NCBI GenBank assembly: GCA_022778785.1
Contig: JALFSO010000005.1
Location: 1-36,354 of the forward strand
DNA: 36,354 nucleotides
From: Dysosmobacter sp.
Lineage (GTDB): Bacteria > Bacillota > Clostridia > Oscillospirales > Oscillospiraceae
Reading direction: 5' to 3'
The notes under the pieces were generated by a model. The model had not been told where the DNA came from and made no database searches. It worked only from the letters and a program-made list of their open reading frames with translations. Positions 71 through 36,131 of this stretch are shown here, in pieces. The position numbers and the translations under genes are program-made. Each line of letters begins with the position of its first letter. Position 1 is the stretch's first letter.

Positions 71-1108
71 TCACATTGCAGGGCCGATGGGCGGCGCCAT
101 ATCCTCCGCCATGCACTGTGCGCTGTAGTCAGCAAGGCTCATGCCCGTCTGCTGCTGGCAGTAGTCCTCCATCTTCGGAAGGAGGAGCGCCTGCTCCTCC
201 TCGCTGAGACAGTACTTGTAGTCCTGCTCGCTGCCATCGCCATGCACCAGGAACACTTCCAGCGTGTCGCAGACGCGGCGGTGCTCCATATCGTAGTTGG
301 CATAGATGTTCAGCCAGTCATCATTCTCATCGGTGCAGACGTGTGTGCCGAATACTTTGTCGACGTCGAAAGCGGTATCCAGATAGAACTCCAGCAGGTT
401 TTCGTTCTGCTCGATGTCCCCGCTGAAGGAGATGTCCCCGGTTCGGAGCATCCGGCTGCCGGTGAGATATCCAGGCTCAATTTCCTGGGTGAGCTGTTTT
501 CCATCGAGATGGTTGAGGAACACCTTCCACCGCTCCTCCAACGACGTATAGGCTCTCTTATTTGCATAGTAGGCGGCGCTGCTGACATCCCTGATTCGGA
601 AACACTGCCAGCCGTCCATGATATGGAGCGCGTTGAAGCGGCCGGAGTCCAGGTCGATGTCGAATGCCCCGGTCACCCGTCCGGTGTTCTCCAGCCGCTC
701 CGACACATAGTCATTGAACTGCTCACGGGAGATCTTCTCCCCGCGGGAAAACATTCCGGTGAACCGTGCGGGAGAGTTCTCAGGGGGCTTGCGGAGATAG
801 CTGCGCAGCCGGGCGGCCACCTGGAGCATCTCCAGATTCTCCTCGGCCACGAAGTAGGTATCGCCGCCGTCCTCCGTCACATGGAACACGGCGAAGCGGC
901 GGGCGGCTTCCTGCGCCTGCTTGTTCTCCTGCTCCTCCTGCCAGATCTCCTGGCTGATGCGGCTGTACTCCGTGTCCGGGATCAGGGCGTTGATGAGCTC
1001 GTCCAGGTGCTCATTGAGCTTGTCCTCCACTGTCTCACCTTTCAGCTGGCGGCTCAGCGCGTCGTACCATCGCCCGTCGAGCCATAGGGTGATTTCTCTA
1101 CTGTTCAT
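71..1108 (-). CDS. Conserved ICE cargo protein, unknown function (345 aa)
   Basis: The protein starts MNSREITLWLDGRWYDAL. The frame is open further upstream, but that part is only the shadow of the DUF6103-like gene. ATG 1108 is chosen because AGGAGG at 1118-1123 lies 9 bases before it. The N-terminal 90 residues are helical and charged; a mixed alpha/beta region follows, with aromatic stretches such as HIMDGWQCFRIRDVSSAAYY and ENDDWLNIYANYDME. There is no signal peptide, membrane segment or known catalytic motif. I recognise it only as a type recurring in clostridial conjugative elements beside DUF6103. It overlaps that gene by 11 bases, so the two are probably translationally coupled. It ends PPIGPAM, a weak version of the Met-rich tail seen on other cargo proteins here. 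Confidence 0.85.
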   Translation of the reverse strand: MNSREITLWLDGRWYDALSRQLKGETVEDKLNEHLDELINALIPDTEYSRISQEIWQEEQENKQAQEAARRFAVFHVTEDGGDTYFVAEENLEMLQVAARLRSYLRKPPENSPARFTGMFSRGEKISREQFNDYVSERLENTGRVTGAFDIDLDSGRFNALHIMDGWQCFRIRDVSSAAYYANKRAYTSLEERWKVFLNHLDGKQLTQEIEPGYLTGSRMLRTGDISFSGDIEQNENLLEFYLDTAFDVDKVFGTHVCTDENDDWLNIYANYDMEHRRVCDTLEVFLVHGDGSEQDYKYCLSEEEQALLLPKMEDYCQQQTGMSLADYSAQCMAEDMAPPIGPAM

Positions 1109-1373
1109 TGCGTGCATCCTCCTTCTGCGCAAGTGGTGCAACAGGACGCGGTTCCTGCTTCGGCTGGCTTGGCCGCGTCGGACGCTTGGGACGAACTGGC
1201 GCGGCTTTTCTGTCCAGAAACTCCCGCACCGGTTCAGGTACAGCCTGTTCATAGAGCTGCCGCAGGGCCTCCTCCATGCGTTTCTGGACGCTGGAATGCT
1301 CCTTCCCCAAATAGAACTCCAGCGCCTCCAGCCGCTCACAGTCGAAGCTGATTGTGATTTCACTTTTTTCCAT
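1098..1373 (-). CDS. DUF6103-like small protein (91 aa)
   Basis: The protein begins MEKSEITISFDCERLEALEF and is a small charged alpha-helical protein with a proline- and lysine-rich tail (RPKRPTRPSQPKQEPRP). The opening resembles the DUF6103 family of small proteins on clostridial mobile elements; this is recognition by eye. The beta-strand-then-helix start would fit a ribbon-helix-helix DNA binder, which is inference. ATG 1373 is preferred over TTG 1388, since GGAGG at 1382-1386 lies 8 bases ahead of the ATG. It overlaps the next gene (start 1108) and follows the 1391-2194 gene closely, so it belongs to the same transcription unit. Confidence 0.8.
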   Translation of the reverse strand: MEKSEITISFDCERLEALEFYLGKEHSSVQKRMEEALRQLYEQAVPEPVREFLDRKAAPVRPKRPTRPSQPKQEPRPVAPLAQKEDARNEQ

Positions 1374-1390
1374 GGTGACAGCCTCCAATC

Positions 1391-2194
1391 TTATTGCATC
1401 GTCATTGTCATGGCGGGGCTGTCCGCGACCCGCATTTCGTAGGGACCTCCAGCCCAGCGGATCCCAGGCAAATTCAGAAAGCAGTCGCCGGCCTCGTTCA
1501 TGATCGCCAGATCGAACTCTGACGCGTCCACCACACCCATGGGGTTATCCAGCCCAGCGCCGTTGTAGACCACGCAGAGCGCGGGCCAATCGGTTACCTC
1601 TGGATACCGCTCAGAGAGTTTCCTGAACAGCAGTGTATCCGTGACTTCTTCCGGCGTGGTCACCGCGCCGGATACATAGGCGCTCTCGCAGGGGCCGGTC
1701 TCCCAGCCCAGAAGGATACGGGTGAACCGAATGGGCATCCGGGCGGTCATGTGGCGGAGCATGGACGCCGACTGGTCATAGGCGTCGTGCAGCCCATTTG
1801 ACACGCCGGCCCACGGCAGATGGGAGGCCATGTCCTCCAGCAAATCCCGGACAACGGCAATCTGCCGCCTGCGGTCATCGCCGGCTGCTTCCACCGCAGA
1901 GAGGTAGCATTGCAGTTCCCGGATCGTCTCTTTCTGCGATTGAACTGTGGCAGGCTCTGCGGCAAAGCTGCCGCGGGCCTGTGCCAGCCGCTGGTCGAAC
2001 CGCTCCATCTGCTTTGGGTCAGGCCGCACTCCATCCAGCCGGGCCATGCCCTGAAGGATCGCGTCGATCCAGAACCGGCGTGTTTCCGACCAGGGCGGTT
2101 CGTCCTGCCGTTGGTGACGCTCGATTCCATTCTGCCGTTCTATGGCATAGGCGGTGAGGCCCTCTTCTGCAAGAGCAATATTAAAACTTGACAT
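1391..2194 (-). CDS. Conserved ICE cargo protein with Met-rich tail (267 aa)
   Basis: This is a soluble protein with no recognised domain. It begins MSSFNIALAEEGLTAYAIER. The first half is helical with a long charged stretch (KETIRELQCYLSAVEAAGDD), and the second half is mixed. It ends with the striking tail SPAMTMTMQ. Two ATGs (2200 and 2194) lie near AAGGAG; 2194 has the better spacing of about 8 bases. The open frame upstream to 2347 belongs to the broken small gene described separately. No signal peptide or membrane segment is seen. Function unknown. Confidence 0.85.
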   Translation of the reverse strand: MSSFNIALAEEGLTAYAIERQNGIERHQRQDEPPWSETRRFWIDAILQGMARLDGVRPDPKQMERFDQRLAQARGSFAAEPATVQSQKETIRELQCYLSAVEAAGDDRRRQIAVVRDLLEDMASHLPWAGVSNGLHDAYDQSASMLRHMTARMPIRFTRILLGWETGPCESAYVSGAVTTPEEVTDTLLFRKLSERYPEVTDWPALCVVYNGAGLDNPMGVVDASEFDLAIMNEAGDCFLNLPGIRWAGGPYEMRVADSPAMTMTMQ

Positions 2195-2196
2195 GG

Positions 2197-2347
2197 TCAT
2201 CTCTCCTTCATCGTTATCTGGGGAGCATCTGTCTGCGCCTCCGCCTGCTGGGTGTTCCAGCTTGCCTCGACCTCCCGCAGATAGGCCGGCCAAGTCCTGG
2301 TTCTCACCAAACAGGGGGCGCACATGGGGGAAGCCATAACTGTCCAT
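2197..2347 (-). pseudogene. Small ORF (about 49 aa) broken by a one-base frameshift
   Basis: An AAAGGGGG ribosome site precedes ATG 2347, and the protein starts naturally as MDSYGFPHVRPLFGENQDL. At the GG pair (2290-2291, CC on plus) the sensible reading switches frame by one base and continues PAYLREVEASWNTQQAEAQ to APQITMKER, with a TGA that overlaps the next start (ATGA at 2197-2200). Removing one base joins the halves seamlessly. Either this is a real inactivating insertion or a one-base sequencing error. An in-frame alternative start, MCAPCLVRTRTWPAYL, also exists but has a poor ribosome site. Function unknown. Confidence 0.55.
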
Positions 2348-2363: not shown

Positions 2364-3407
2364 TTATTGAATGAATTTCATGCTCTGAGCCTCCGGCTTA
2401 TAGGCATCGAGGACAGAGCGGAACTGCTCCAGCCGTTCCGGCTTCACGCCGTCAATCACGATCTCCGTGCCGTCCTCCCCGGCGCGGGTCTCCAGAACGC
2501 GGGCGTCCAGCACATCGGAGAAGCGTTTTCGCTCCGCACGGGTCAGTTCCTCCTCCTGTTCAAGGAATATCGGTTCTCCACCCTGGGTGTGGACGAGAGA
2601 CAGATCCTCGGCCAGCTCGTACTGGAGAATGTCCCGCAGAGAGATATCAGAGTTTTCCGGCAGGGCTATGACGGCACCCGCGGCCAGCATGGCCTCGACG
2701 GTGAGGTATCCGCGTGCCAGGATCTCCTCATTCGGCATTTGCAGGCCGTCGTGAAGAGTGGAGTAGATACCTTCACTTTCAAAAAGCTCACAGAACACCT
2801 CTACCGCGTCATAGAAAAGCCGGGTCTTCTGTTCCTCCGGAAGTTTGGCGAAGTAGCACGGTTTCTGGCCTTGAATCCTGGGACAGAAACTGGGGTGGTA
2901 CGCTATGTCGAGCCCTGTATCGGTCAGTACCGCCGAGGCTATCTCTCTGCGGCGTGTGAGCACATCCAGCAGCATCCCGTCCAGGCCGTTTCCTCTGCGG
3001 ATCGTGATCCCGGTCCGCTTCTCCAGCTCCTCGAAACTGACGCCCCAGTTCCCGTTCTCTGTGGCCTCCGTACCCTGCCGGACGATGAAGTCCGCCGCCC
3101 GCTCCAGTCTGGCGTTGAGGATATCCCGCATCCCCGGCAGATAGGCGGCGAGGCGTGGGTAATCATAGCCGTCGGAATAGACCAGCACACCGTCCTCGCT
3201 GCCCTGGCCCAGCGCCAGCAGGCAGTGGATGGCTCTGTTGTCGACGAACATCCGGCTTTTGTTCTCCGCAATGAACGGCTGATTTGTGAGCGGTGTGATC
3301 ACCAGCGCGGAAAACTCCGCCGTTGATAACTCCACCACCTTCTCGATTTGACAATCATCCATCTGAAAATTGTTGGGTCTGTTCAAGAGATTTGCTTTGA
3401 TTTTCAT
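2364..3407 (-). CDS. Conserved ICE cargo protein, possibly DUF6329-like (347 aa)
   Basis: The protein begins MKIKANLLNRPNNFQMDDCQ. The first 130 residues look like one mixed alpha/beta domain, including HCLLALGQGSEDGVLVYSDG. I associate such openings with DUF6329 proteins of clostridial mobile elements, but not firmly. The C-terminal half contains a helical segment (FLEQEEELTRAERKRFSDVL) and ends EAQSMKFIQ. There is no export signal. ATG 3407 is preferred to GTG 3410, with AAAGGA about 7 bases upstream. It sits between the M23 hydrolase and the broken small gene, in the same orientation. Role unknown. Confidence 0.8.
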   Translation of the reverse strand: MKIKANLLNRPNNFQMDDCQIEKVVELSTAEFSALVITPLTNQPFIAENKSRMFVDNRAIHCLLALGQGSEDGVLVYSDGYDYPRLAAYLPGMRDILNARLERAADFIVRQGTEATENGNWGVSFEELEKRTGITIRRGNGLDGMLLDVLTRRREIASAVLTDTGLDIAYHPSFCPRIQGQKPCYFAKLPEEQKTRLFYDAVEVFCELFESEGIYSTLHDGLQMPNEEILARGYLTVEAMLAAGAVIALPENSDISLRDILQYELAEDLSLVHTQGGEPIFLEQEEELTRAERKRFSDVLDARVLETRAGEDGTEIVIDGVKPERLEQFRSVLDAYKPEAQSMKFIQ

Positions 3408-3428
3408 CACATTTTCCTTTCCTCTGCC

Positions 3429-4496
3429 CTATGGCAGATAGCTGCGCGGGTTCGTCCGCTCCCCGTTGACCCGCACCTCGAAGTGGAGGTGCGGACCGGT
3501 GGACCGTCCGGTGGAGCCGGACAGGGCGACCACATCCCCTGCCTCCACCGTCCGGCCCGCCGAGGCCAGCAGTTGGGAACAGTGGCCGTATAGAGTGGAC
3601 AGGCCATCGCCGTGGTCGATGATGATATAGTAGCCGTACCCGCCCTGGTTGTAGGCGGAGACTGTCACCGTCCCCGGCAGGGCGGCGCGGATCGGCGTGC
3701 CGGTGGGTACCGCCAGGTCCATGCCGGTATGTCCCCGGCGCTCTCCCGTGATGGGGTCGATACGATTGCCGAACTCCGAGGTGACCACGCTCCGCCAGTT
3801 CTCCCCGATGGGAGAGCAGAAGCCGTCCGCCCCGATGAACGGCACATCCGAACCGGAAAAGCCGCTGCCGCTCCCGGTGTAGCCATAGCGGATCAGACTG
3901 TAGACGCTGTCCGCATTGGCTTGTTGATCATCGGTGGACTCTGTGCCCAGCACGGCGTAGATGTTCTTGTAGACCTGTGCCAGATCCTCGATAGGTACTG
4001 CCACGGTATAGGTTTCTTCTTCCTCTGTGGTAGTTCCATCTTCATTCGCTATGATTACGGTGCGGGTGCGCTCCTCATAGGTGACGAAGCAGTCCGCAAA
4101 CGCCCGGCAGTCCTGGCGGCTGGGACTTTCCGCGCCGAAGTACAGAGCATAAAAGATGGCCTTGACACGGATACCGTCAAGGCCATTTTCATCCTCTGCC
4201 TGTGCGTTGATTTCAGCGATGGCTCCATCCAGCAAAGCGAAACAGGTCTGCATCTCTCCGATATAGGCACGGTACTCGTCCGGGAGTTCCGCAGGAATCG
4301 TCCCGCCGTAGAAGCACAGCTCCACCACAGAGAGGTTGTGGGAGGCGGAGCCCGAACCCAGAGAGCATAAAAAGGCGATGAGCAGGATCACCGGAGAGAG
4401 GATGGCCACCAGCACCCAGCCCAGCTTCTTCCGGGTATTTTCATCCGAGAGGGCGGCGATGGCCGCTTTGACTACCGCGGCGGCTGTGGCGCTCAT
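3429..4496 (-). CDS. Membrane-anchored M23-family cell-wall peptidase of the conjugation system (355 aa)
   Basis: Residues 26-46 (GWVLVAILSPVILLIAFLCS) form one membrane helix. A roughly 170-residue extracellular region follows, then a C-terminal M23 (LytM-type) zinc endopeptidase domain from about 225. Zinc and catalytic residues are visible: H256 and D260 in GHTGMD, and H336 and H338 in GPHLHFEV. M23 enzymes cut peptidoglycan cross-bridges; here the likely job is opening the wall for the type IV channel, the role of VirB1- and NlpC/P60-type proteins in related elements (inference). ATG 4496 overlaps the stop of the ankyrin-like gene as ATGA, so the frame to 4619 is not used. It has no Met-rich tail, unlike neighbouring cargo. 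Confidence 0.93.
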   Translation of the reverse strand: MSATAAAVVKAAIAALSDENTRKKLGWVLVAILSPVILLIAFLCSLGSGSASHNLSVVELCFYGGTIPAELPDEYRAYIGEMQTCFALLDGAIAEINAQAEDENGLDGIRVKAIFYALYFGAESPSRQDCRAFADCFVTYEERTRTVIIANEDGTTTEEEETYTVAVPIEDLAQVYKNIYAVLGTESTDDQQANADSVYSLIRYGYTGSGSGFSGSDVPFIGADGFCSPIGENWRSVVTSEFGNRIDPITGERRGHTGMDLAVPTGTPIRAALPGTVTVSAYNQGGYGYYIIIDHGDGLSTLYGHCSQLLASAGRTVEAGDVVALSGSTGRSTGPHLHFEVRVNGERTNPRSYLP

Positions 4497-5887
4497 AGAC
4501 TCATGCCGCCCATGGCTGGGCCGTCCTGCTGTGGGCCGCTTTGCAGTTCTGACCAGTATTCGGACAGCGCATCCATGGTTTCCGCATGGCCGTCGCTCCT
4601 GCCGTAGGCCGCATCCCACAGGCGGTACTGCTCCAGATCCATGCCGCGATCCAGCAGCAGCTTGGCCGTATCCACCGCGTCATTTTGAATGCAGGCAGAG
4701 AGGGCGGCATAATCATCCAGTTCCACCGGCATCCCTGCTTTCAAAAGCCGCTCTGCCATCCATTCCAGATGACCAGAGAGCAAAGGACGGAGCACCTGGG
4801 AAATGTGACGGTCCGGCTGCGCCCCCTTTTCCACCAGCACCATGGCAGTTTGGAAATCCTGCCGCATGGCGGCCATGGGCAGCAGGCTTGGCGGTGCGGC
4901 GGCAATCTGCTCCGGGGTGCATCGCCGGAGCAGGTCTTTGGCGATCTCCTGATGATCGTGTCCATAGGCGTACTGGATGACCTCGCCGGGGAGCGTGGGA
5001 CGCGGCTCTGAGAGCCGGCTTTTCATCTGCTCCACCAGAGTCTGCACCCGCTGGCTGTCTCCCGTATCCACCGCCCGCTTGCAGGCGGTGAGGTAGGCTT
5101 CCGGCGAAATACTCCTTGCGTCGGCCAGCAATGTCAGAACCATCTTCCGTCCAACTATCCCCGGCCGTCCAGCCGCCTCCGCCAGCAGACTGTCCGCCTG
5201 ATTCGGCACCTTGGGGTAAAACTGCTTGAATGTTTCCAACTCGCCGTCCCGGATGGCCAGTACTGTTTTGTCATAGTCGCTCATGCGCAGGGGCCGCTGA
5301 CCAGCCGTGTCCATATAGGCGGTGATGCTCCCGGTCATGCGCCGTAGAAGCTGCTCGGTCTGGGACATGGCAGCCTCCTGTCGTTCCCGCTGCTCTGCCA
5401 GCGCCTGGATGATGGTACGCTGTTCCGCGGGATCCAGGTGGACGATCATGTCCTCTGGCTCCGGTCGTTCCCCCAACCGCATATACCGGGCATAGGTGCC
5501 GCCATCCCCGTGGAACGCCTTGGTGATGGCGGAGGAGATGAGAAACATCCGGTCAAGGTCCGCGCCGGTATCGCCCAGGGTCTTGCCGGTGATGAAGCTC
5601 CTGGTGACCGGCTGGCCGTTTTCATACCACTTCAGGTACACATCCAGATAGACGCCCTCGCTGCCGCCATAGTCGGTGGTACAGAAGATGTCTGCGTCCT
5701 GGGGGATCTCCCGGCCATTTTCCCACTCCTGAGCCAGCAGAAAATACTCGTCCGGCAGATAGCCCATGCCCTCCAGCCGGTATTTCAGTTCCTCGAAAAC
5801 CTCCTGGGCTGTGCGCTGTCCGGCACACTTCAGCTTGCGGGGGTCTTCCTCGGAAGGCTCCCATTTGTCCAATTCAATGGTTTTCAT
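4493..5887 (-). CDS. Ankyrin-like repeat protein with Met-rich tail (464 aa)
   Basis: The N-terminal 160 residues are a mixed domain of unknown family (FEELKYRLEGMGYLPDEYFL, FCTTDYGGSEGVYLDVYLKW). A helical linker follows, and from about residue 200 there are helix-turn-helix units typical of ankyrin-type repeats, such as MAAMRQDFQTAMVLVEKG, HLEWMAERLLKAGMPVELDD and NDAVDTAKLLLDRGMDLEQY. Ankyrin repeats bind proteins; no partner can be named. It ends DGPAMGGMSL, and its stop overlaps the M23 start. The ribosome site GGAG lies about 10 bases ahead of ATG 5887. The repeats are degenerate, so the fold is likely but not certain. Confidence 0.85.
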   Translation of the reverse strand: MKTIELDKWEPSEEDPRKLKCAGQRTAQEVFEELKYRLEGMGYLPDEYFLLAQEWENGREIPQDADIFCTTDYGGSEGVYLDVYLKWYENGQPVTRSFITGKTLGDTGADLDRMFLISSAITKAFHGDGGTYARYMRLGERPEPEDMIVHLDPAEQRTIIQALAEQRERQEAAMSQTEQLLRRMTGSITAYMDTAGQRPLRMSDYDKTVLAIRDGELETFKQFYPKVPNQADSLLAEAAGRPGIVGRKMVLTLLADARSISPEAYLTACKRAVDTGDSQRVQTLVEQMKSRLSEPRPTLPGEVIQYAYGHDHQEIAKDLLRRCTPEQIAAAPPSLLPMAAMRQDFQTAMVLVEKGAQPDRHISQVLRPLLSGHLEWMAERLLKAGMPVELDDYAALSACIQNDAVDTAKLLLDRGMDLEQYRLWDAAYGRSDGHAETMDALSEYWSELQSGPQQDGPAMGGMSL

Positions 5888-11379: not shown

Positions 11380-11400
11380 TATAATCAAGACAGCTTGATT
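11380..11400 (+). promoter_or_regulatory. Promoter -10 box and overlapping dyad upstream of the glycosylase gene
   Basis: A perfect TATAAT (11380-11385) lies about 30 bases ahead of ATG 11417. No good -35 box sits at normal spacing. The dyad AATCAAG (11383-11389) and CTTGATT (11394-11400) overlaps the box, which would suit an operator. The neighbouring RHH-like protein is a candidate binder (inference). Confidence 0.5.
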
Positions 11401-11416
11401 GTGGGAGGGTCTTGAG

Positions 11417-26691: not shown

Positions 26692-27532
26692 CGTCATCTT
26701 CCTCCTTTTCATAGTCAAACAGGTTTAACTGGACCGAGGCCCGCTCACGCTCATGCATATCGTAGTTGGCAATGAGCAGCTCGGAAAATTGACAGTTGGG
26801 ATCGTACCGCTGCCGGATATTGTTCAGCCGGGTCACCGGCTCGATCCGGATGCCGGGCGCGTCGTACAGCTCCCGGATGAATTCGTCATCGTTGTAGGAC
26901 AGCAGGAACTTCCCCTGCATGGACAGCAGCGTGTCCCGCAGGCGGATGTGGTCTTTCTCTGTAAAGCCGTCCTCTCCAATGTTCTGGTAATACCCCTCCG
27001 TGGCGTGGTAGGGCGGGTCGCAGTAGAACAGGCTCACAGGCCGGTCATACTGGCGGACGAGCTTTTCAAAGTCTTTGTTCTCCACCACCACTCTGGCAAG
27101 CCGCCGGTGGGCCTGCTCGATCAGCGGGAAGTTGGCCCGCATATCGTGGGGCTGGCTGCCATAGCTGGTGAGGGCCGAGGCGTAGCTGTACCGGATGATC
27201 TGATAGAACAAGGCCGCTTTCCGCACGGCGTCCATGGGACTGTCGCGGGCGAGGGCGGTCCTGGCCCGCTCAAAGTCCTCACGGGAATTGAGGACATACC
27301 GCAGGGCGGCGATCAGCTCCTCCGGCTTGTCCCGGACGCAGCGGTACAGATTGACGAGCAGGCTGTTGAAATCGTTGTAGACCTCAAAATCGTTGCCGGG
27401 ATCTTTATGGAACAGCACCCAGCCGCCACCGCCGAACACCTCGATGTACCGCTCATAGTAGATGGGGAACCGCCGCACCACCTCCTCCCGCAGCGCCTTC
27501 TTGCCGCCCACCCAGCTCATGAAGCTGTTCAC
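26666..27532 (-). CDS. Dam-type adenine-N6 DNA methyltransferase (288 aa)
   Basis: Motifs are in the alpha-class (Dam) order. SWVGGKKALREEV precedes VFGGGGWVLF (SAM-binding FxGxG, about 32-40), and FYCDPPYHATEGYY holds the catalytic DPPY at 172-175. SYNDDEFIRELYD and NCQFSELLIANY near the end also fit the family. It methylates adenine in DNA and, in a conjugative element, most likely guards against restriction; the target sequence cannot be read from the protein. GTG 27532 is chosen because GGGAGG lies 9 bases upstream and it overlaps the preceding stop (GTGA); ATG 27520 lacks a ribosome site. The frame open to 27781 is a shadow. It ends in a very acidic stretch (EKEEDDDEIFEG). Confidence 0.94.
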   Translation of the reverse strand: MNSFMSWVGGKKALREEVVRRFPIYYERYIEVFGGGGWVLFHKDPGNDFEVYNDFNSLLVNLYRCVRDKPEELIAALRYVLNSREDFERARTALARDSPMDAVRKAALFYQIIRYSYASALTSYGSQPHDMRANFPLIEQAHRRLARVVVENKDFEKLVRQYDRPVSLFYCDPPYHATEGYYQNIGEDGFTEKDHIRLRDTLLSMQGKFLLSYNDDEFIRELYDAPGIRIEPVTRLNNIRQRYDPNCQFSELLIANYDMHERERASVQLNLFDYEKEEDDDEIFEGTY

Positions 27533-27861
27533 GGGCCGCCGCCTCCCTCCAGTGGGAGCCTGGTCTGGGCAGTGTCGAACCGCTCCAGCGACCGGGACAG
27601 GCCCCGGATCGCCGCGGCGATGCCGCTGATGCGGTGGGTCATGTGGGCGATGGTGGCCCGCACCTCCTGCTCCGTGGCGGCGTAGAAGTAGCCGTTTCCG
27701 TTGCTGGCAATGGGGACGCCCTGCCGCCGCAGGCCGTTCACCGCGTCCCGCAGGTCCTTGCCCCGGACGCCGAAGGCACACTCCAGCTCCCAGCTGGTGG
27801 CGGCGTTAGCGGCGCCCAGGTGATACCGTTCCAGGTACTCCGCCAGCCGTTCTTTCTCCAT
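27529..27861 (-). CDS. Small protein with winged-helix-like N-terminus (110 aa)
   Basis: The sequence ERLAEYLERYHLGAANAATS, then WELECAFGVRGKDLRDAVNG and LRRQGVPIASNGNGYFYAAT reads as helix, helix, helix and wing, as in small DNA-binding proteins of mobile elements. A second helical region (HMTHRISGIAAAIRGLSRSL) may mediate self-association. Function is inferred from pattern only. ATG 27861 has GGAG 5 bases upstream, and the open frame to 27945 is not used. The stop overlaps the Dam start, so the two are coupled. It is the first gene after a strong terminator and therefore probably begins a transcription unit. Confidence 0.82.
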   Translation of the reverse strand: MEKERLAEYLERYHLGAANAATSWELECAFGVRGKDLRDAVNGLRRQGVPIASNGNGYFYAATEQEVRATIAHMTHRISGIAAAIRGLSRSLERFDTAQTRLPLEGGGGP

Positions 27862-27901: not shown

Positions 27902-27943
27902 AAAAAAAGAAGGGGCCGTTGTCCCTTTCGGAAAAACGGCCCC
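27902..27943 (-). terminator. Intrinsic terminator closing the antirestriction gene cluster
   Basis: GGGGCCGTT (27912-27920) pairs with AACGGCCCC (27935-27943), and TTCTTTTTTT follows on the minus strand. It lies 14 bases after the stop of the 27957-28976 gene and is among the strongest terminators in the window. Confidence 0.9.
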
Positions 27944-27956
27944 AATTCTCGATTTT

Positions 27957-28976
27957 TTACTGCTGTTCCATCGTCATCCCCGCCTCCTCCGGGGCGCTGC
28001 GCTCATAGATAAACTCCCGGCTGTTCCGGGTGATGTAGGCGCTTTCAGCGGCGGTCAGCACATAGCCCGCTTCCTCCAGCAGATCCGCCGCGTACCCCTC
28101 CAGATCGATGCAGCCGGAGGAGAGCAGTTCCTCAGCCACCCCCGCCTCCAGCAGCTTTCGCCTGCCAAATTCCTTCAGGCTGTCACAGGGGATCCACTCA
28201 TAGCAGTGGAGATTCTGGATGATGTCCAGGGCAAAGCGCAGGTCATGGCAGTTCTCAAATTCCAGGGCAGCGGCAAACCTCTCCAGAAAGCGGGGCGTTC
28301 CCTGGCCCTGTTCCTCCAGCGCATAGCCCAGGTCGCTGCCGTCGTTGACCAGCTCCAGAGCGTCTGCATATTGCTCCATCAGGTCCCCCAACTGGGGCCG
28401 GCCGCACCGGGCGTCCATCAGGACACAGTCCTCCAGACTTCGGACATTCAGCTCGTCCAGGGCCAGGGCCACCTCGTCCGGCTGGCCGCTTACGGCGGAG
28501 TGATCCGGCAGGCGCAGCCATACCCCCTCCGGTATTGTGGGGGAGGCCAGCTTCACCTTGACGCTCCAGCCGTCATCCTCCGGAATGAGCCCCTGGCCGG
28601 TGTAGCGGAGAGGGACGGGGCCGGACGGATAGGCCACATAGCAGCTCCCGATGAACAGGCCGGGGTGTCGGTCCTCATACATCATGCCGATCCGTTCCAG
28701 ATCCGCGTAGTACATAGTGCGTTCCGGCAGATGGGCTTCGTGCCGGAGATAAAAGCTCCCCAGCTGTGCGTAGCTTCCCGCGGGAAAGCACACCCCATAG
28801 TCCTCCATGGAGAGCAGCTGATTGATGGCCTCCGCCATGGATTCCGGTCGCGCGCTGATGACAATGGCGCTGACAATGTGCTTTTCCTTCTTGCTCAATG
28901 TGGACAACCGCTCCGCCAGCCAGTCCCGTTCCTGTTCTGTTCCCGGAAGTATCATCAGTTCCTCAAATTCCCACAT
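27957..28976 (-). CDS. Antirestriction (ArdA-like) family protein with GMTM tail (339 aa)
   Basis: The first 180 residues are unlike the neighbours (ERDWLAERLSTLSKKEKHIV; LLSMEDYGVCFPAGSYAQLG). The rest resembles the ArdA-type module of its neighbours: SLEDCVLMDARCGRPQLGDL, HDLRFALDIIQNLHCYEWIP and DLLEEAGYVLTAAESAYITR. ArdA proteins are acidic DNA mimics that block type I restriction enzymes; this acidic protein would fit, although the assignment is by similarity in pattern. It ends EEAGMTMEQQ just before a terminator. Its ATG overlaps the stop of the previous gene by one base (TAATG), with GGAG 8 bases upstream. Confidence 0.8.
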   Translation of the reverse strand: MWEFEELMILPGTEQERDWLAERLSTLSKKEKHIVSAIVISARPESMAEAINQLLSMEDYGVCFPAGSYAQLGSFYLRHEAHLPERTMYYADLERIGMMYEDRHPGLFIGSCYVAYPSGPVPLRYTGQGLIPEDDGWSVKVKLASPTIPEGVWLRLPDHSAVSGQPDEVALALDELNVRSLEDCVLMDARCGRPQLGDLMEQYADALELVNDGSDLGYALEEQGQGTPRFLERFAAALEFENCHDLRFALDIIQNLHCYEWIPCDSLKEFGRRKLLEAGVAEELLSSGCIDLEGYAADLLEEAGYVLTAAESAYITRNSREFIYERSAPEEAGMTMEQQ

Positions 28977-30121
28977 TACATCATCTCCATTCCGCCCCGC
29001 TGGGGCTGTTCTGCCATGACCTGGCCGTCCCGCCTCTCTACCAGGCCGTACTCAGTCACTGTACTGCCGTACTTCTGGAGCAGAGCCTCCCCATACCGCC
29101 AAAGGGTCACATGGGGGAGCAGAAGCTCCGCCGCTTCGTCACCAAGGATGATCCGAAGTTCATTCTCCGCCACCTCCGGCATGGTGCGCACATCCGGCTC
29201 CACCATATATTCGTCCAGCTGTCCGGCCAGCCGGGACGCCTCATTGATATCTGAGGGATCCTCTGCTATGAGGATTGCTTTGTACTTTGTCAGTTCCTCC
29301 GGTCCAAGCCGCGCCAGATGCTGCGCCAGCCGGTTGACATGGGTGATGCTGACGGCCTCGTCCACCAGATCCTTCAGGGCGGGTGCCGCGCAGTCCAGAC
29401 AGCGGAATCGGATATTCTGCCACGCTTCCGCTCCAATGGACTTTAGCTTGTTATCAATCATCAGGTGTGACGCTGGCAGCGGCAGCGAAACATTGTGTTC
29501 GCCATTTGTCAGTTCCATCAGAACCGCATAGTCCGGCCTGCGGAGGCGGAGGTCAAGGGTATCATAGACCTGCTCCAAGTCTGAGTCCTGCGTCACATAA
29601 CCATGGCTGGTGAATACGCCGCCCTCATCCATGCGGGCCTTTCTGCCCAGCATTTCAAAATCCAGCATTTGAAACACGCTGTCAGGGATGGCGTCAAGCT
29701 CCGGCATAAAACCGTTTTCCGCATAAAACCTGCCGAGCTGGGAGTCGTTCTGCACCTCACTCAGCACATGGCAGCAGTCCGTGCTGTAGGCCAGGTCGAT
29801 GATCGTGGATATCTGGATCGGACCATACTTTTTGGAGACCTCCACCTGGAACAGCCCCTCGAACGCGGCTTTCTGCCGTTCATCCAGCCGCGCCAGCCTG
29901 TCTGCCAGTGCATTGAGCTGAAATAGATCGCATTCATCCGTCAGATGAATATGGAGATACGGAAAGTCGTTATACTCGAGGATATCCCAGTCCGGCTTGC
30001 CGTCCATGGGCATTTGCAGCCGCTCCAGCGCGTCCAGCAGTTCATAGGGGGCGGCGGGAAGCTCCAGTTCGCAGTAACAGCCGTTGCCTCCAGACAGTTC
30101 TACCCGAAACACCTTATTCAA
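28976..30121 (-). CDS. Antirestriction protein, ArdA-like (381 aa)
   Basis: The sequence NKVFRVELSGGNGCYCELEL, then LPAAPYELLDALERLQM, and AFEGLFQVEVSKKYGPIQIS, IIDLAYSTDCCHVLSEVQND, GRKARMDEGGVFTSHGYVTQ is the pattern annotated as ArdA in clostridial elements. These proteins mimic DNA and bind restriction-modification enzymes in the cytoplasm. A second, partly repeated domain follows (NRLAQHLARLGPEELTKYKA; LRIILGDEAAELLLPHVTLW). It ends PQRGGMEMM. The start is TTG 30121, supported by AGGAGG 8 bases upstream; it overlaps the previous stop by 8 bases. It is translationally linked to both neighbours. Confidence 0.88.
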   Translation of the reverse strand: MNKVFRVELSGGNGCYCELELPAAPYELLDALERLQMPMDGKPDWDILEYNDFPYLHIHLTDECDLFQLNALADRLARLDERQKAAFEGLFQVEVSKKYGPIQISTIIDLAYSTDCCHVLSEVQNDSQLGRFYAENGFMPELDAIPDSVFQMLDFEMLGRKARMDEGGVFTSHGYVTQDSDLEQVYDTLDLRLRRPDYAVLMELTNGEHNVSLPLPASHLMIDNKLKSIGAEAWQNIRFRCLDCAAPALKDLVDEAVSITHVNRLAQHLARLGPEELTKYKAILIAEDPSDINEASRLAGQLDEYMVEPDVRTMPEVAENELRIILGDEAAELLLPHVTLWRYGEALLQKYGSTVTEYGLVERRDGQVMAEQPQRGGMEMM

Positions 30122-31100
30122 GCGTCAACCCTCCTGTCTTCGGCTGAAAATCTTCCAGATACTTGGCAGGGTCAGCACCGGGACATCCCCAGCCGCACAT
30201 ACTGCCCACCTCCATGGCCTTGCGCTGCCACATGGTCACGCCAAGCTGCTCATTGAGCTGGTCCGCCAGCTCCACATTCCGTTCCTTGTCACCGGTGTCC
30301 CAGTCGGAGGGGTAGTAACCGGTCTCGCCCCGCTTGATGCAGATCAATTCGCCGGTGGTCAGGATGGTGGAGAAGCACAGCTCCGGCAATCCCTCCGCAA
30401 TTTTAGGACTGAACCGCTCCTCCTCGGTCTGGATGCTCCAGTTGTTCCAATTCCAGAGATGGACATACAACTCACCGCCATCTGCCTCGATCTCCCGCTG
30501 CTCAAAGCCCTCACCCCAGCCGTCTGAAGCCTGTCCGGAGACATACTCCTTGAGCGTGTCCAGTTCTTCCGGGGTGAGGGTGCCGACCACCCGACACTCC
30601 GCCACGCCCCAAAGCTGGCCGTTCCGCTCCTCAGCAGTGAATACCACAGACCTGACCTTGTCATCCACACTGTCATTTTTGCCGTACCAGTGCATGATCC
30701 CGCGCTCGGTTTCCTCCGGCATCCGGTTCTTCACCAATGCGGCAAGGATATCCCCTTCATAGGTCCGCAGCTCCCTGCCGTCCAACGGAGTACCTTCCTC
30801 CTCCATATCGCCCCATTCGTTCCGCTCATAGAGGTCAGCGGTCAGGGGCATATAGAGTTTCATGGTGGTGGGTTCGGGCGGCAGGACGGTAAAGCTGTCC
30901 TCACCAATGACCAGCGACAATGTTCTTCCGTTGTCCCACCTCATGTGGAAGTGGCCGGCGTCGTCGATGAAGTCCAGCGTTCCCATGGCTCCAGAAGAAA
31001 TTGGATCTGGATCGGTTTTCATCTCTCTGAGCTTGATTCGGCTGCCCGCGGGGTACTGCTCCCGCAGGAAAGCCAGCCACTCTTTCGGAATACTGTTCAT
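30114..31100 (-). CDS. DUF4314-like domain protein (328 aa)
   Basis: The N-terminal part (GSRIKLREMKTDPDPISSGA; GTLDFIDDAGHFHMRWDNGR; TLSLVIGEDSFTVL) has the small beta-barrel pattern of DUF4314 domains found on mobile elements. The next 240 residues are mixed, with a tryptophan-rich stretch (YVHLWNWNNWSIQTEEERFS) and a late Cys pair (MCGWGCPGADP), and are of unknown family. It ends GGLTLE. Its ATG overlaps the previous stop (ATGA), with a GGGGGG ribosome site inside the upstream reading frame. It probably belongs to the same defence-evasion operon; its function is unknown. Confidence 0.82.
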   Translation of the reverse strand: MNSIPKEWLAFLREQYPAGSRIKLREMKTDPDPISSGAMGTLDFIDDAGHFHMRWDNGRTLSLVIGEDSFTVLPPEPTTMKLYMPLTADLYERNEWGDMEEEGTPLDGRELRTYEGDILAALVKNRMPEETERGIMHWYGKNDSVDDKVRSVVFTAEERNGQLWGVAECRVVGTLTPEELDTLKEYVSGQASDGWGEGFEQREIEADGGELYVHLWNWNNWSIQTEEERFSPKIAEGLPELCFSTILTTGELICIKRGETGYYPSDWDTGDKERNVELADQLNEQLGVTMWQRKAMEVGSMCGWGCPGADPAKYLEDFQPKTGGLTLE

Positions 31101-32116
31101 GACAATCCCCCCATCGTCATGCCCTCATCGGGCGTATTTTGATAGTCCTCCAACAGGCGGGGGTTTTCCTCGCCGTAGAGGTCGTACAGGATATCGTCCA
31201 CCTGCTTGCGGACTGTGGGGTCATCGGTCAGCGTTTCATACCGGAAGCCGGTGGCCGGATGGTCTGGCAGCTCCTCCCGGATGCACTGGAGATATGCCTC
31301 CGCATCCGTGTACTCCACCTGTTCGCCGCTGGCAAAGGTCACCCGCCCCACCACCGGCTTATCTGTCATATTCTGTCTCTGGACACGGAGGTCAAAGGCG
31401 GTCAGATAGGCTTGATACTCACCGGCTACGGGGTTGCACCGCAGGCAGTAGCGATAGTTCTCTGTCTCCACGATATAACCGTAGTTCTGTACCCAGCCGC
31501 CGCTGATCTCTCCGCCATGGCCCCGGCAGTAGCCAGCCATGGCGGAGAAGTTCTTCAGGACGTTATTTCGCAGCTCATCCACCACATCCTGCAATTCGGA
31601 CTTGAATTCCGGGGAGTTCAGCTCCTCCGGGCCTCTCGGCCACCAGGTGTGCCAGAACTCCGTGCCGCTCCGTCCGAAATCCATGCGGACATAGCCGACG
31701 CAGCCGAATTTCGCATCTTCCTCCGGACTCATGGCGTAGAAAAAGCCCGCTTCCTCGGGTGAAGCGGGCCGAATGGCAAATGTTTGATTGTGAAAGGGAT
31801 ATTCCAGGCTGTTGTTCCGGCAGTAGTCTCGCAGTGTCATGGTCTCTCCAAGCAGGAGGAACTGCCTGTTCACTCTGCGGGATATTGTGTCGGCCCGTTT
31901 CAGGGGAACGGGGGAAAGGACAGAGCCAATGGGATTTATACGGGCGCGGTCTGACAGTGCGATGGGCTTTTTGGCATTGCGGACGCTGCCTCTCAGTTCG
32001 TAGTAATACCAGCCTTCCGGGACATCCTCCCGCGGGATACGCTGGGGAGTGAACAGTACCGGCCTGCCGAACAATATGGCTGATCGCAGGGGATCGGTTT
32101 TGATATTGATACTCAT
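31097..32116 (-). CDS. LPD28-like domain protein with GMTM tail (339 aa)
   Basis: The N-terminal 90 residues (AILFGRPVLFTPQRIPREDV, PEGWYYYELRGSV, then INPIGSVLSPVPLKR) resemble the LPD28 domain, one of the large-polyvalent-protein-associated modules of phages and conjugative elements. The rest is unknown and includes WHTWWPRGPEELNSPEFKSE and YRYCLRCNPVAGEYQAYLTA. It ends DEGMTMGGLS, and part of that tail (GGLS) coincides with the ribosome site of the next gene. ATG 32116 has GGAGG 6 bases upstream. A promoter candidate lies just ahead, so this may be the first gene of the 32.1-28.0 kb unit. Confidence 0.82.
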   Translation of the reverse strand: MSINIKTDPLRSAILFGRPVLFTPQRIPREDVPEGWYYYELRGSVRNAKKPIALSDRARINPIGSVLSPVPLKRADTISRRVNRQFLLLGETMTLRDYCRNNSLEYPFHNQTFAIRPASPEEAGFFYAMSPEEDAKFGCVGYVRMDFGRSGTEFWHTWWPRGPEELNSPEFKSELQDVVDELRNNVLKNFSAMAGYCRGHGGEISGGWVQNYGYIVETENYRYCLRCNPVAGEYQAYLTAFDLRVQRQNMTDKPVVGRVTFASGEQVEYTDAEAYLQCIREELPDHPATGFRYETLTDDPTVRKQVDDILYDLYGEENPRLLEDYQNTPDEGMTMGGLS

Positions 32117-32295: not shown

Positions 32296-33411
32296 CTACA
32301 TGCTTTGCTGGGACTGCGTCTGATTTGGAAAGGGCGTACTGATGCGTCGCACAAAGCCAAATTCGGTTTGCTGGACATCGTCCTCCTCCATGTAAGCCTC
32401 ACCGAGCCGCTCGAAATCCGTGTAGAGTTCAAGAATATCGAGAACGTCTTCATCGACGCCGAATCGCCGCAGAACCTGCTTTCCATATTCCTCCTGGTCG
32501 TCAGGGACACGCTCATAATCGTCCAGCTCCAGCGCCAGATCCAGAGCGGCGGGAAAGTCCTCCGGCTGCTCCGCTGACAGGACGGCAAGGTATTTCAGCA
32601 GCTCGCCGTCTGTCTGTCCCATCTCCCGCACGGCCATCGCCAGCTCGTTGGCGGACTCCACGCTGACGCAGTCCACAGGAATATGTTCTTCCAGATAAGG
32701 GACGAGAAATTCAACCGCTTCGATCCTGGCCTCCGCGAAGTCCGTGATCCCAAGCTGTGCTTTTGCGGCGTCCAACTCTGTTTCCTCTGCGGGAAGATGC
32801 AGAACGCAGACTGTCCCGGTGGTTTCCAGCTGGAGCCGGATCACCGAATCCTCCTTTTGTTCAGGCTCTGCTGACTGTTTGCGCAGGACATAGCCGCTGT
32901 AGGTATAAGCGCCGCCTCGGTCGGCATAATACTCTGCGCCGATCTTGGCAAAATCCAAATACGGCCATGCTTTTTCCGGAAACCGGGGATCGCCGTGGAG
33001 CAGTCCGGCAGCAGCCACATATTTACCAAGATCGGTATCCGAGCTCACATTGGGGATGATGGTATATTCCTCCAGCGACTCTGAGACACGAAGCACATCA
33101 TCCAGCCCGTTGACGCTTTCGGCATCCAACGCTCCGGCGAAGATATCCCGCTGACGCTTGCTCATCCCGCCGATCCTTTCGGCCAGCGTGTTGAGCTTTT
33201 GCATGTCCTCTCTGCTGTTCAGGTCCGCATAGCGGACATACTGCCCGATATTGGCAACCGGGCTTTTGACATCCAGGATTCTGACATCCCCGGCATAGCG
33301 GCTGACTGTATCCAGCAGGGCGAACGCCTCGCCGATCTCCGCGGGTGTTGTGGGAAAGCGCAGGCGGACGCCCTCCTGGTTATCCCCGCGGGTCAGATGC
33401 AGTTCGATCAT
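32296..33411 (-). CDS. Antirestriction protein, ArdA-like (371 aa)
   Basis: The first half shows ArdA-type features: LRFPTTPAEIGEAFALLDTV, VANIGQYVRYADLNSREDMQ, KLNTLAERIGGMSKRQRDIF, then a stretch ending in YYADRGGAYTYSGYVLR. A second half repeats the theme (ETGTVCVLHL-like start with QLETTGTVCVLHLP; NELAMAVREMGQTDGELLKY; DFERLGEAYMEEDDVQQTEF). The two-domain layout and strong acidity suit a DNA-mimic inhibitor of restriction enzymes (family knowledge). It ends QSQQSM. ATG 33411 overlaps the previous stop (ATGA), with GGGAGG 6 bases upstream. It is the last gene of its block before the 179-base gap. Confidence 0.87.
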   Translation of the reverse strand: MIELHLTRGDNQEGVRLRFPTTPAEIGEAFALLDTVSRYAGDVRILDVKSPVANIGQYVRYADLNSREDMQKLNTLAERIGGMSKRQRDIFAGALDAESVNGLDDVLRVSESLEEYTIIPNVSSDTDLGKYVAAAGLLHGDPRFPEKAWPYLDFAKIGAEYYADRGGAYTYSGYVLRKQSAEPEQKEDSVIRLQLETTGTVCVLHLPAEETELDAAKAQLGITDFAEARIEAVEFLVPYLEEHIPVDCVSVESANELAMAVREMGQTDGELLKYLAVLSAEQPEDFPAALDLALELDDYERVPDDQEEYGKQVLRRFGVDEDVLDILELYTDFERLGEAYMEEDDVQQTEFGFVRRISTPFPNQTQSQQSM

Positions 33412-34616
33412 GACAAGCCTCCCATCTGCGGGCCCTGCTCCATCTGCTCTGTTGGGATGTTCCGGGCCACAATCTCGCTGATCTCCTGCGCTGTCCCCAG
33501 GTAGGCCACATAGCCCCGGTCTCCAAAAAGCCCGCCCTCCTCCCGGATACGGCGCTCTCCGTAGCTCTGGTAGTTGATATAGTCCTCCAGATTTGGGTCC
33601 ACCTCAAAATGGCCGGACTCCTGGATCATATAACGCCCATATTCCTCCGCGGTGCTGATGTCCGGCACCACCGTAAACTCGTGAAGATTTTCCGCCAGGG
33701 CCAGGATCTCCTCCGGCGTCTGGGGCCAGACTGTATCGAAAACAGTATGGAAGTTCTCCATTGCCTGCCCGTCGAACTTTCGCAGGTGCCGGGTCAGGGC
33801 GTTCAGGGCAGCCAGATGCTCATTCAGAGGATATTCACGCTCAAAGACGCTCCGGACCGCGTCGCTGAGTTCGGCGGTATCCAAGACTGCAATACACTGC
33901 TCCGGCCTGTCCGCGCCCAGCCGCCGCACCGCGCGGGCGATCTTGCTCTCCGCGCAGGGGAAATAGAGCGTTTCCTGCTGCTCCGGCTTTCCGATCACCG
34001 AAAGCGTTACAGAGGCCGCGCAGTCCTCGTAGAAAAACTCCGGGAGATGGCGGCCGTCATAGATACTGGACAGCCGCATGCCGTTGTCATACACCACGCC
34101 ATAGGGTGTGACTGTCCCGCCTCCGCCCTCAATGAGCAGCAGCGCAGTCTCATATCCGTCCAGAGCGTCCAGTTCTTCCGTCCTGGCGCAGCCGCCATGC
34201 AGGTTCATGTAGTGGTCACGGCCTATGGCCTCCAGATCGGAGAAGTCCGTGATCACCGTGGCCTGCTGGCAGCAGAAGGTCAGGTTGATAAAGTCTGTCA
34301 TATCCCGAAGATCCAGCTTTTCCGCCATGGCCTGAAACTGCGCGGCCTCACCAACATCAAAGCTGTCCAGCCGCTTTGCCAGGTAGTCCAGCTCGTCCAG
34401 ATTGACGGTGAGCATCTCCATTCGCTTTAACACGGGAAAACTGCTGCTGATCTCCATGACCTGACAATCCCGGTGGACGGGATCGCCGATCTCCAGTGCG
34501 GATAGAAGCTCAACACAGTGGTCATATTCCTCGTTGGGGATGGGGAATGGGATGGTGGCCACGCCATATTCAGGATGCTCCTGATTGGCCAACACCGCCT
34601 GCACCAAGGGAGCCAT
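33408..34616 (-). CDS. Antirestriction-like protein, two ArdA-type halves (402 aa)
   Basis: The first half has a divergent ArdA-like pattern (IPFPIPNEEYDHCVELLSAL, LTVNLDELDYLAKRLDSFDV, YETALLLIEGGGGTVTPYGV). The second is clearer: LYFPCAESKIARAVRRLGAD, LNEHLAALNALTRHLRKFDG, NLHEFTVVPDISTAEEYGRY and REEGGLFGDRGYVAYLG. It probably inhibits host restriction; this is inferred from family resemblance and acidity. It ends QGPQMGGLS, whose final codons double as the ribosome site of the next gene. The ATG overlaps the previous stop by one base. Confidence 0.84.
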   Translation of the reverse strand: MAPLVQAVLANQEHPEYGVATIPFPIPNEEYDHCVELLSALEIGDPVHRDCQVMEISSSFPVLKRMEMLTVNLDELDYLAKRLDSFDVGEAAQFQAMAEKLDLRDMTDFINLTFCCQQATVITDFSDLEAIGRDHYMNLHGGCARTEELDALDGYETALLLIEGGGGTVTPYGVVYDNGMRLSSIYDGRHLPEFFYEDCAASVTLSVIGKPEQQETLYFPCAESKIARAVRRLGADRPEQCIAVLDTAELSDAVRSVFEREYPLNEHLAALNALTRHLRKFDGQAMENFHTVFDTVWPQTPEEILALAENLHEFTVVPDISTAEEYGRYMIQESGHFEVDPNLEDYINYQSYGERRIREEGGLFGDRGYVAYLGTAQEISEIVARNIPTEQMEQGPQMGGLS

Positions 34617-35326: not shown

Positions 35327-35369
35327 GTGCTGTCCTTTCCGGATGGGACCTTTATCCCGAAAGGGCGGC

Positions 35370-35404
35370 AAAAAAGGCCGGCGTCCCAAACGGGATACGG
35401 CCTT
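35370..35404 (-). terminator. Intrinsic terminator after the 35424-36131 gene
   Basis: AAGGCCG (35374-35380) pairs with CGGCCTT (35398-35404), with an inner GTCCC/GGGAT pairing. TTTTTT follows on the minus strand. It isolates the first gene of the window from the antirestriction cluster. Confidence 0.8.
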
Positions 35405-35423
35405 GTCCTGTGTTGATGATGAT

Positions 35424-36131
35424 TTAGAATTGCTGGGTCATGCCCTGATATTCCGTATCTTCTGCTGCCTCCAATTCCTTCTGATTTGACTGGCTGACCA
35501 GCTCTGCCAGGGCAGGAACCGCACATTCGATCTGCGCCGCCACGCCCTCCAGCAGCTTTTGGCGTTCCGCGGTGATGGGATAATGATTCTCCAGCGTTTC
35601 GTGGACGCAGCGGTAGACCTCCGCAAGCTGCTCCTTAGAAAAAAGCTGGTGCTTGTCCAGCAGGCCGGAGCGGATGGCAAAGTCCCGCTTTGCCGCCTGA
35701 TAGTCATTTCCAGCATAATGACCTTGCCACAGGCTGGTACGCTCATTGATCCACGCCCAGGTGGTGAATTGAACGCCGTGTTTGCCGGGGAGGGCGGCAA
35801 GCACAACATCATTGAACTCCGCCAGTACTTGATATGGTTCGTGCAGGCTGTCCGCTTTCAGCAATGGGGCTTTATCCAGGAGAGTCATGTACTCCCTGAC
35901 CGTGGCGGCGATATCCGCGGCCCGGTCACAGGCCAGCTCGGTATCTGAGTCGGTCATATCCTCCTGTCGGTATCGGATGCCGCCTGTGCTGGCGACTCGG
36001 CACAGAGGCTGGTCGTTCCACTCTACCGGGAGAAAACCATCCTGTTCTGGCAGGACCACAAAGCCCGTTTGCCGGAGGCGGAGGGCCAGTTCGGAAAAAT
36101 AAGATTTATTTGCTGTCGTTTCTGTTTTCAT
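35424..36131 (-). CDS. Conserved ICE cargo protein with GMTQQF tail (235 aa)
   Basis: This soluble, acidic protein begins MKTETTANKSYFSELALRLR. It contains GFVVLPEQDGFLPVEWNDQP, the helical ACDRAADIAATVREYMTLLD, and FNDVVLAALPGKHGVQFTTW followed by AWINERTSLWQGHYAGNDYQ. It ends TEYQGMTQQF, a variant of the Met-rich tail. No catalytic motif or export signal is seen and I do not know the family. ATG 36131 has AAAGGA 6 bases upstream. It is flanked by terminators on both sides and may be a single-gene unit. Confidence 0.82.
   Translation of the reverse strand: MKTETTANKSYFSELALRLRQTGFVVLPEQDGFLPVEWNDQPLCRVASTGGIRYRQEDMTDSDTELACDRAADIAATVREYMTLLDKAPLLKADSLHEPYQVLAEFNDVVLAALPGKHGVQFTTWAWINERTSLWQGHYAGNDYQAAKRDFAIRSGLLDKHQLFSKEQLAEVYRCVHETLENHYPITAERQKLLEGVAAQIECAVPALAELVSQSNQKELEAAEDTEYQGMTQQF

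Follow-up and report, generated by a model that had tools for sequence, protein, structure and literature searches.

Substrates of type IV secretion systems (T4SSs) can carry signals at or near the C terminus, hydrophobic or positively charged and independent of the domain they follow, as in the Agrobacterium VirB/D4 system, Legionella RalF and the F-plasmid conjutome (PMC11288057, PMC8406263). The VirD4 coupling protein is the receptor known to sort such substrates, and the F-plasmid T4SS delivers maintenance proteins to recipient cells (PMC8406263). ArdA, YodL and LPD28 domains have been proposed as T4SS-delivered effectors in Tn1549-like and other elements, and the excerpts of that study consulted here describe no C-terminal signal on its polyvalent proteins (PMC5512222, Iyer et al. 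2017). For Gram-positive bacteria, a 2025 review finds it surprising that nearly all known T4SS functions are DNA transfer only, and treats the existence of effector translocators as a long-standing question (PMC12857230). Here we describe short Met-rich C-terminal tails on otherwise unrelated proteins of an integrative and conjugative element (ICE) in Dysosmobacter sp. The window, meaning the whole 36,354-nt stretch analysed (JALFSO010000005.1, assembly GCA_022778785.1), lies on contig C68 of its genome, and elements of its kind are called type I below.

Like the T4SS signals above, these tails are C-terminal and domain-independent; unlike them, they form a compact near-consensus motif across unrelated families of Gram-positive ICEs, with another motif for another ICE type, and are known from sequence alone. 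The domains ArdA, YodL and LPD28 are shared with the polyvalent proteins, but in window-type elements they mostly form separate small proteins, each with its own tail, and most cargo proteins of the window have at most one Pfam domain. We found no description of such tags in the open-licence literature. C-terminal T4SS signals are already known; compact, ICE-family-specific tags on a whole Gram-positive cargo set are, as far as we have seen, undescribed. Two other kinds of C terminus invite comparison. The GGM-repeat end of GroEL is also Met/Gly-rich and flexible, but belongs to a single, unrelated chaperonin family. Sortase and ssrA-type tags are likewise short C-terminal fate labels, whereas the present tails are directly gene-encoded and have no LPxTG, membrane anchor or Ala-Ala ending.

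Met-rich tails of type I elements

A strict two-Met tail pattern (M.{1,3}M.{0,4}$, devised once the tails were known) fits 281 of the 1349 genes in the window and 83 related loci (1.35 Mb, 84 sources), compared with 5 of 241 host genes (p = 1.8e-16). The enrichment over host proteins that a sequence-only reading of the window had proposed for related elements is thus borne out. Two-Met tails are found on 2 of 386 genes in stretches of Tn1549-like elements. The host control comes from 20 stretches of six same-family genomes, not individually screened for mobile DNA; one of its five matches, ending PDMGGMY, is probably GroEL. When the proteins were collapsed at 70% identity and SpoVG was dropped, 114 of 545 still carried the tail, and shuffling of the last 40 residues gave a mean of 27 matches among the 1349 genes. 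A tail outside SpoVG occurs in 67 of the 84 sources. Met is enriched within about the last seven positions, preceded by a linker in which Gln (3.7-fold), Glu (1.9) and Pro (1.8) are overrepresented. Chance is rejected by the host comparison and by shuffling, and a host-wide feature by the host control and by the second tag described below.

The main set was gathered through SpoVG, and genes of the window and its relatives were called with a codon-based caller. SpoVG relatives lie at 18 places (the window's counted) in 16 of 150 same-family genomes searched. Ten of the 18 proteins have Met tails (MGGMSM, PEMTM, DGMSM, PTMAM, VMGGM and others) after a freely variable linker; the remaining eight are mostly more distant and have other endings. 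GTDB contigs were then scanned with an alignment of ten Met-tailed SpoVG proteins; the 80 best loci among the 241 relatives found were retained, and IMG/VR viral contigs added three. The invariant Met in that alignment is partly circular, because its rows were picked for having tails, and we place weight instead on the retention, cluster, shuffling and machinery counts. Stretch L141, considered as a type I element, turned out not to be one and enters no count. Locus L257 is type I, yet has no strict tail (endings QSMKL and HGIQMS).

Tails are restricted to particular families. At least one tailed member occurs in 40 of 225 protein clusters. Among the 33 clusters with at least eight members, the two-Met tail is absent from 22 and exceeds 20% in nine; the other two (8% and 12%) are membrane families in which the matches look like chance. 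Two-Met tails were counted on ArdA (64/104), SpoVG (63/90), DUF3849 (36/40), DUF4314 (22/39), LPD28 (17/26) and YodL (9/42) proteins, on 12/25 members of cluster 18, which has the C-terminal part of DUF3849 proteins, and on 6/8 members of each of two unnamed clusters. At least one Met lies in the last eight residues of 101/104 ArdA, 86/90 SpoVG, 40/40 DUF3849, 35/39 DUF4314, 26/26 LPD28 and 24/25 cluster 18 proteins, and of 49/241 host genes; 38/42 YodL proteins have at least one in the last six. A lone Met is not diagnostic, since the untailed membrane clusters 9 and 23 carry a single one in the last eight residues of 29/35 and 22/22 members, within fixed family-specific endings (DMFNYAG and KIGxMD).

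One whole element has further tailed proteins, namely DUF6103, DUF6329, DUF7768, Amidoligase_2 and a DUF3991/Toprim protein that adjoins the relaxase. At the Toprim position, four of five elements end in FTMTM, FSMTM, FIIAM and FEMKMS and the fifth in DMRQLC. The small family of cluster 41 (tail GMRMT), which has no Pfam match, looks by eye like an ADP-ribosyltransferase. No two-Met tail was found on D12 methylases (0/71), the 26188 family (0/71), sortases (0/37), ParA/MinD-like ATPases (0/31) or the secretion ATPase T2SSE (0/28), and a membrane-like segment is present in 6 of 281 tailed versus 373 of 1068 untailed proteins. Enzymes had been described as untailed. This holds in the window for the VirB4-like protein, the D12 and C5 methylases, Tag and the PP-loop protein; it fails for relatives, whose amidoligase, DUF3991/Toprim and DUF7768 proteins are tailed.

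In the window itself, the strict pattern fits seven of 34 called genes (1391, 4493, 14366, 25411, 27957, 28976 and 31097), against the same 5/241 host genes (Fisher p = 1.2e-4). All ten endings listed by the sequence-only reading are present as written; GPAM at position 71, which it had called weak, stays so, its sole relative ending in ATQQM. Variant or weak endings at 2364, 16514, 30114 and 32296 had gone unnoticed. No length-matched relative of 1391, 4493 or 14366 was found in the sets searched. The tailed proteins, with relatives counted first for two-Met tails and then for Met plus a hydrophobic residue, and three untailed proteins are as follows.

25411-25794, minus strand: SpoVG-family protein of 127 amino acids (PF04026); tail DMGMTM at 25414-25431; unique relatives 52/80 and 66/80
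27957-28976, minus strand: protein of 339 amino acids without Pfam match, in a BLAST cluster with the ArdA group; tail GMTMEQQ at 27960-27980; unique relatives 16/37 and 33/37
28976-30121, minus strand: ArdA-domain protein (PF07275); tail GGMEMM at 28979-28996; relatives 27/53 and 46/53
30114-31100, minus strand: DUF4314 protein with a further C-terminal region (PF14192); tail variant GGLTLE at 30117-30134; 26/27 unique relatives end in Met plus a hydrophobic residue
31097-32116, minus strand: LPD28-domain protein (PF18843); tail GMTMGGLS at 31100-31123, overlapping the start of the next gene; relatives 14/23 and 22/23
32296-33411, minus strand: ArdA-domain protein (PF07275); weak tail QSQQSM at 32299-32316; relatives 33/64 and 56/64
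33408-34616, minus strand: ArdA-domain protein (PF07275); tail QMGGLS at 33411-33428; relatives 12/35 and 29/35
35424-36146, minus strand: protein of 240 amino acids without Pfam match; tail GMTQQF at 35427-35444; relatives end in SMTQQF, GMDGMTQQI and EMEQTM
14366-15511, minus strand: DUF7768 protein (PF24963); tail GMGMAMG at 14369-14389; the DUF7768 cluster of other elements (domain confirmed for one) ends in GMELQL, GMSMKL or GMKLQY
4493-5887, minus strand: ankyrin-like protein, below the Pfam cut-off; tail PAMGGMSL at 4496-4519, by pattern only
1391-2347, minus strand: protein without Pfam match; tail AMTMTMQ at 1394-1414, by pattern only
2364-3410, minus strand: DUF6329 protein (PF19854); tail variant SMKFIQ at 2367-2384; 3/4 relatives with Met plus a hydrophobic residue
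16514-16936, minus strand: protein of 140 amino acids; weak tail QQTM at 16517-16528; 3/4 relatives with Met plus a hydrophobic residue
7895-9739, minus strand: VirB4-like ATPase of the conjugation machinery (AAA_10, P-loop_TraG), untailed; relatives end in LFGKAGGR
15521-16438, minus strand: TrbL-type channel protein (PF19511, TrbL_5), untailed
26666-27781, minus strand: D12 adenine DNA methyltransferase (PF02086), untailed, of the 0/71 cluster

Directly after the stop codons of 27957 and 16514 lie inverted repeats of the form GGGGCCG...CGGCCCC (27910-27956 and 16469-16513, by eye), possibly terminators. Two DNA-level tail patterns scanned in the window's genome gave 0 and 1 match and are uninformative, because the distance to the stop varies; the lone match, on contig C107, lies inside an opposite-strand gene call and looks like chance.

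The tail is retained among divergent relatives. At 30-45% identity, two-Met tails are kept in 65.2% of 2306 pairs, compared with 21.7% of aligned cases for interior Met, in families chosen for their tails and with pairs that are not independent. Free variation between orthologues is thus not what we see. Spacing in 192 unique tails is MxM in 106, MxxM in 71 and MxxxM in 15. The most telling evidence of portability is that domain fusions shift the tail to the new C terminus. Six short DUF4314 proteins (90-101 amino acids) consist of DUF4314 plus tail; in 26 unique long ones (241-438 amino acids), DUF4314 is untailed and followed by a further region that ends in the tail or a variant. Similarly, the C-terminal part of DUF3849 is followed directly by the tail in one cluster, and in another by 93-97 more residues and then the tail or a variant.

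A second tail and the conjugation machinery

Through SpoVG relatives that lack Met tails we reached elements with CD1107-like, NlpC/P60, MobA/MobL, DUF3801 and DUF3846 proteins, which we take to be Tn1549-like. On the unrelated proteins of these elements another ending recurs, often PS[VIL]xxxL, followed by a linker rich in Lys and Pro and then by Glu/Asp and R, L or V. Examples are HDREPER and RHDLER (MobA/MobL), KEQSHER (PF03432 relaxase), GGPER (DUF3801), SGPEL (DUF3846), THEPEL (LPD1) and KKREPER (DUF3849). An [EDQ][RL] ending, fitted by eye, is found on 12.2% of the 386 Tn1549-like genes, a set that includes flanking host genes, on 1.9% of the 1349 type I genes and on 4.6% of host genes. 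These tails are Lys/Arg-rich before the end, those of type I Met/hydrophobic. Two giant proteins, of 2753 (L274:919-9180) and 2906 (L273:872-9592) amino acids, have the same end module as their small neighbours (KLQRPLP...NELEV); the giants end in PNELEV and NELEGR and the neighbours in KTKEQEL and KPRDKEL, as if a single tag served each whole multi-domain fusion. Three annotated Tn1549-like relaxases carry that element's tail, and Arg is the last residue of 17 of 29 relaxase hits, a count that includes fragments.

DUF3849, YodL, ArdA and SpoVG domains have a different tail in Tn1549-like elements than in type I elements. Two short ArdA proteins (174 amino acids; L209 and L210) bear neither tag. 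Both tags occur in the window's own genome. Its contig C49 (L270), which carries parts of a Tn1549-like element, encodes a PF03432 relaxase with the ending DHEHGR and a DUF3848/DUF3849 protein with the ending KREPER, so that C68 bears the Met tag and C49 the Lys/Glu/Arg one.

Tail type tracks the conjugation machinery. We fetched twenty loci around YodL or DUF3849 genes after the tails of those proteins had been seen, so the comparison is not blind; L269 and L270 come from the window's own genome, which was set aside, and do not enter the machinery counts. In eight loci with type I machinery, Met tails are found on 23/149 genes and the other tail on 2/149; in ten assigned to the Tn1549-like type, the counts are 1/139 and 20/139 (p = 1.7e-6 and 2.2e-5). 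Removal of the 20 selecting proteins leaves Met tails at 19/140 versus 1/128 (p = 3e-5) and the other tail at 2/140 versus 11/128 (p = 0.008). Five of the loci have a thinly supported machinery type, namely L267 (nothing but a polyvalent match), L268, L273 and L274 (matches of relaxase type) and L275 (two accessory matches); the count for firmly typed loci given further below omits these five. In L272, which has Tn1549-like VirB4 and TrbL matches, the DUF3849 protein has the Tn1549-like tail, and its type I counterparts have the Met tail. Type I machinery includes T4SS-DNA_transf and a relaxase in one element, MobL in four more, and VirB4-like and TrbL proteins in the window; no VirD4 or relaxase was seen in the window itself.

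Possible roles of the tails

That the tails are a shared tag is well supported: they are terminal, limited to soluble cargo families, retained, portable and matched to the machinery type. We propose, with a probability of roughly 0.6, that they are a portable, element-specific C-terminal address that directs soluble cargo into the recipient through the element's own conjugation machinery. An element-encoded receptor is suggested because the tag is terminal and portable, is restricted to soluble cargo, goes with the machinery type and differs between the two ICE types that share one genome. The tag would consist of a linker rich in Gln, Glu and Pro and, at the polypeptide end, (G)-M-x-M or M-G-G-M, with Leu, Ile or Phe sometimes replacing Met. 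It would be recognised by the machinery of the element family, most likely a predicted VirD4-type coupling protein, and ArdA, SpoVG, LPD28, YodL, DUF3849 and other proteins would pass through the type IV secretion channel into the recipient during mating. The delivered cargo could shield the incoming DNA and help it become established before expression of its own genes begins, and Tn1549-like elements would use a different tag for their own machinery. The cargo fits delivery, because ArdA- and YodL-type domains are proposed T4SS effectors and F plasmids send maintenance proteins (PMC5512222, PMC8406263). A common tag for export through the conjugation channel had been suggested from the window alone. 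The tag half of that suggestion holds, being family-restricted, terminal, retained, portable, independent of gene overlaps and exchanged between ICE types; that the coupling protein recognises it and that the cargo passes into the recipient we infer.

Several points weigh against this proposal. The strict pattern was chosen post hoc and fits only part of each family, ArdA and YodL included. With firmly typed loci only, the association with machinery is weaker (Met tails 16/130 versus 1/94, p = 0.001; other tail 2/130 versus 7/94, p = 0.04). None of five type I MobL relaxases has a two-Met tail (one, QTMHTL, is a loose fit), though a relaxase must be transferred. The D12 methylase and the ParA/MinD-like ATPase are untailed, though the recipient might use both, and the amidoligase tailed in relatives has no obvious role there.

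The Gly and Met codons of the tails look like GGAGG...ATG, and the tails might be a by-product, at the DNA level, of the sites that overlapping downstream genes use for ribosome binding and translation start. A Shine-Dalgarno core lies within the last 27 nt of the open reading frame in 71 of 281 tailed genes, and tails are commoner where the next gene begins 0-30 nt downstream (99/292) than elsewhere. By distance, tailed genes number 83/472 at overlaps, 41/121 at 0-9 nt, 58/171 at 10-30, 52/267 at 31-100, 41/218 beyond 100 nt and 6/100 at locus ends, so the frequency beyond 100 nt equals that at overlaps and tails are not confined to ribosome sites. The two hydrophobic tail positions are ATG in 466 cases; the swaps to Leu (93), Ile (37), Phe (12) and Val (4) mostly use codons that cannot start translation, and the SpoVG, DUF3849 and YodL tails of many relatives lie ahead of a separate ribosome site. 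The window's SpoVG tail had been read as followed by non-coding DNA; the 15-nt gap between its stop and the next ATG does hold a Shine-Dalgarno sequence, but the tail itself is not that site. As a general explanation this origin is contradicted and very improbable, though it may shape some overlapping cases in which tail and site coincide. Hardly credible is that the tails are functionless chance, or remnants of recent gene duplication or tail copying, even if many genes of one element bear a short common ending. The retention contrast and the shuffled expectation given above speak against it, spacing and intervening residues vary, linkers differ freely, and tails identical at the DNA level across families of one element were not seen. 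Given retention among divergent relatives, copying without selection is unlikely.

Portability, soluble-only cargo and element specificity would be explained equally well by a docking tag that gathers cargo on a donor complex, such as the relaxosome, an actin-like segregation filament or a replication or regulatory complex, and is never exported. One element encodes an untailed actin-like protein close to its relaxase, and a link between YodL and MreB has been published (PMC5512222). We nevertheless consider docking unlikely, as the tailed set includes anti-restriction (ArdA) domains, which would gain nothing obvious from being gathered in the donor, and as Tn1549-like relaxases, necessarily transferred, bear that element's tail. 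Short hydrophobic C-terminal tails can also be protease signals, and a degradation signal or protease adaptor site could keep element proteins scarce. With two different tags (C68 and C49) in one genome, however, a host protease would need to read both, and long, stable-looking proteins and whole families are tailed while other element proteins are not, which makes this reading improbable.

Extended beyond these two element types, the address-tag proposal would mean that Gram-positive ICE families have private C-terminal codes read by their own coupling proteins, each delivering some ten or more proteins (anti-restriction, primase-like, regulatory and many of unknown function), a generalisation to which we give even odds. 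If the tag is an export signal, substrates become readable from sequence, and the tagged proteins of an element, many of unknown function, are its predicted delivered set, to be read from its C-termini. Giant polyvalent fusions and small proteins tagged one by one would then be two solutions to the same delivery problem. The proposed polyvalent effectors would gain a delivery signal, and the question of Gram-positive effector translocation would become directly testable.

Adhesin, pilus-like and other regions

A 1747-amino-acid adhesin with a thioester domain and 13 SpaA domains is encoded at 17353-22596 on the minus strand of the window. It ends in PLPRTGY, an LPxTG-like motif that runs straight into the stop codon and lacks the hydrophobic, charged tail normally found behind it; among the seven endings displayed for its 16 listed relatives, nearly all are alike. 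A sortase gene lies in the same window at 23690-24484. In several type I elements (L130-L133, L256-L261), an operon between the SpoVG/YodL genes and TrbL encodes a T2SSE-type ATPase, a MinD/ParA-like ATPase and membrane proteins, which we take to resemble a Tad-type pilus machine; the window has the SpaA adhesin and sortase at this position instead.

Of the 34 called genes, 33 lie on the minus strand, and the Tag gene (11399-11971) is the sole plus-strand one. The C5 cytosine methylase is split into two overlapping open reading frames, 13701-14528 with the N-terminal and 11965-13704 with the C-terminal part of PF00145, with a long insertion. In a Tn1549-like element, the VirB4-like protein at L146:5219-8104 (minus strand) has a sub-threshold match to an intein splicing domain.

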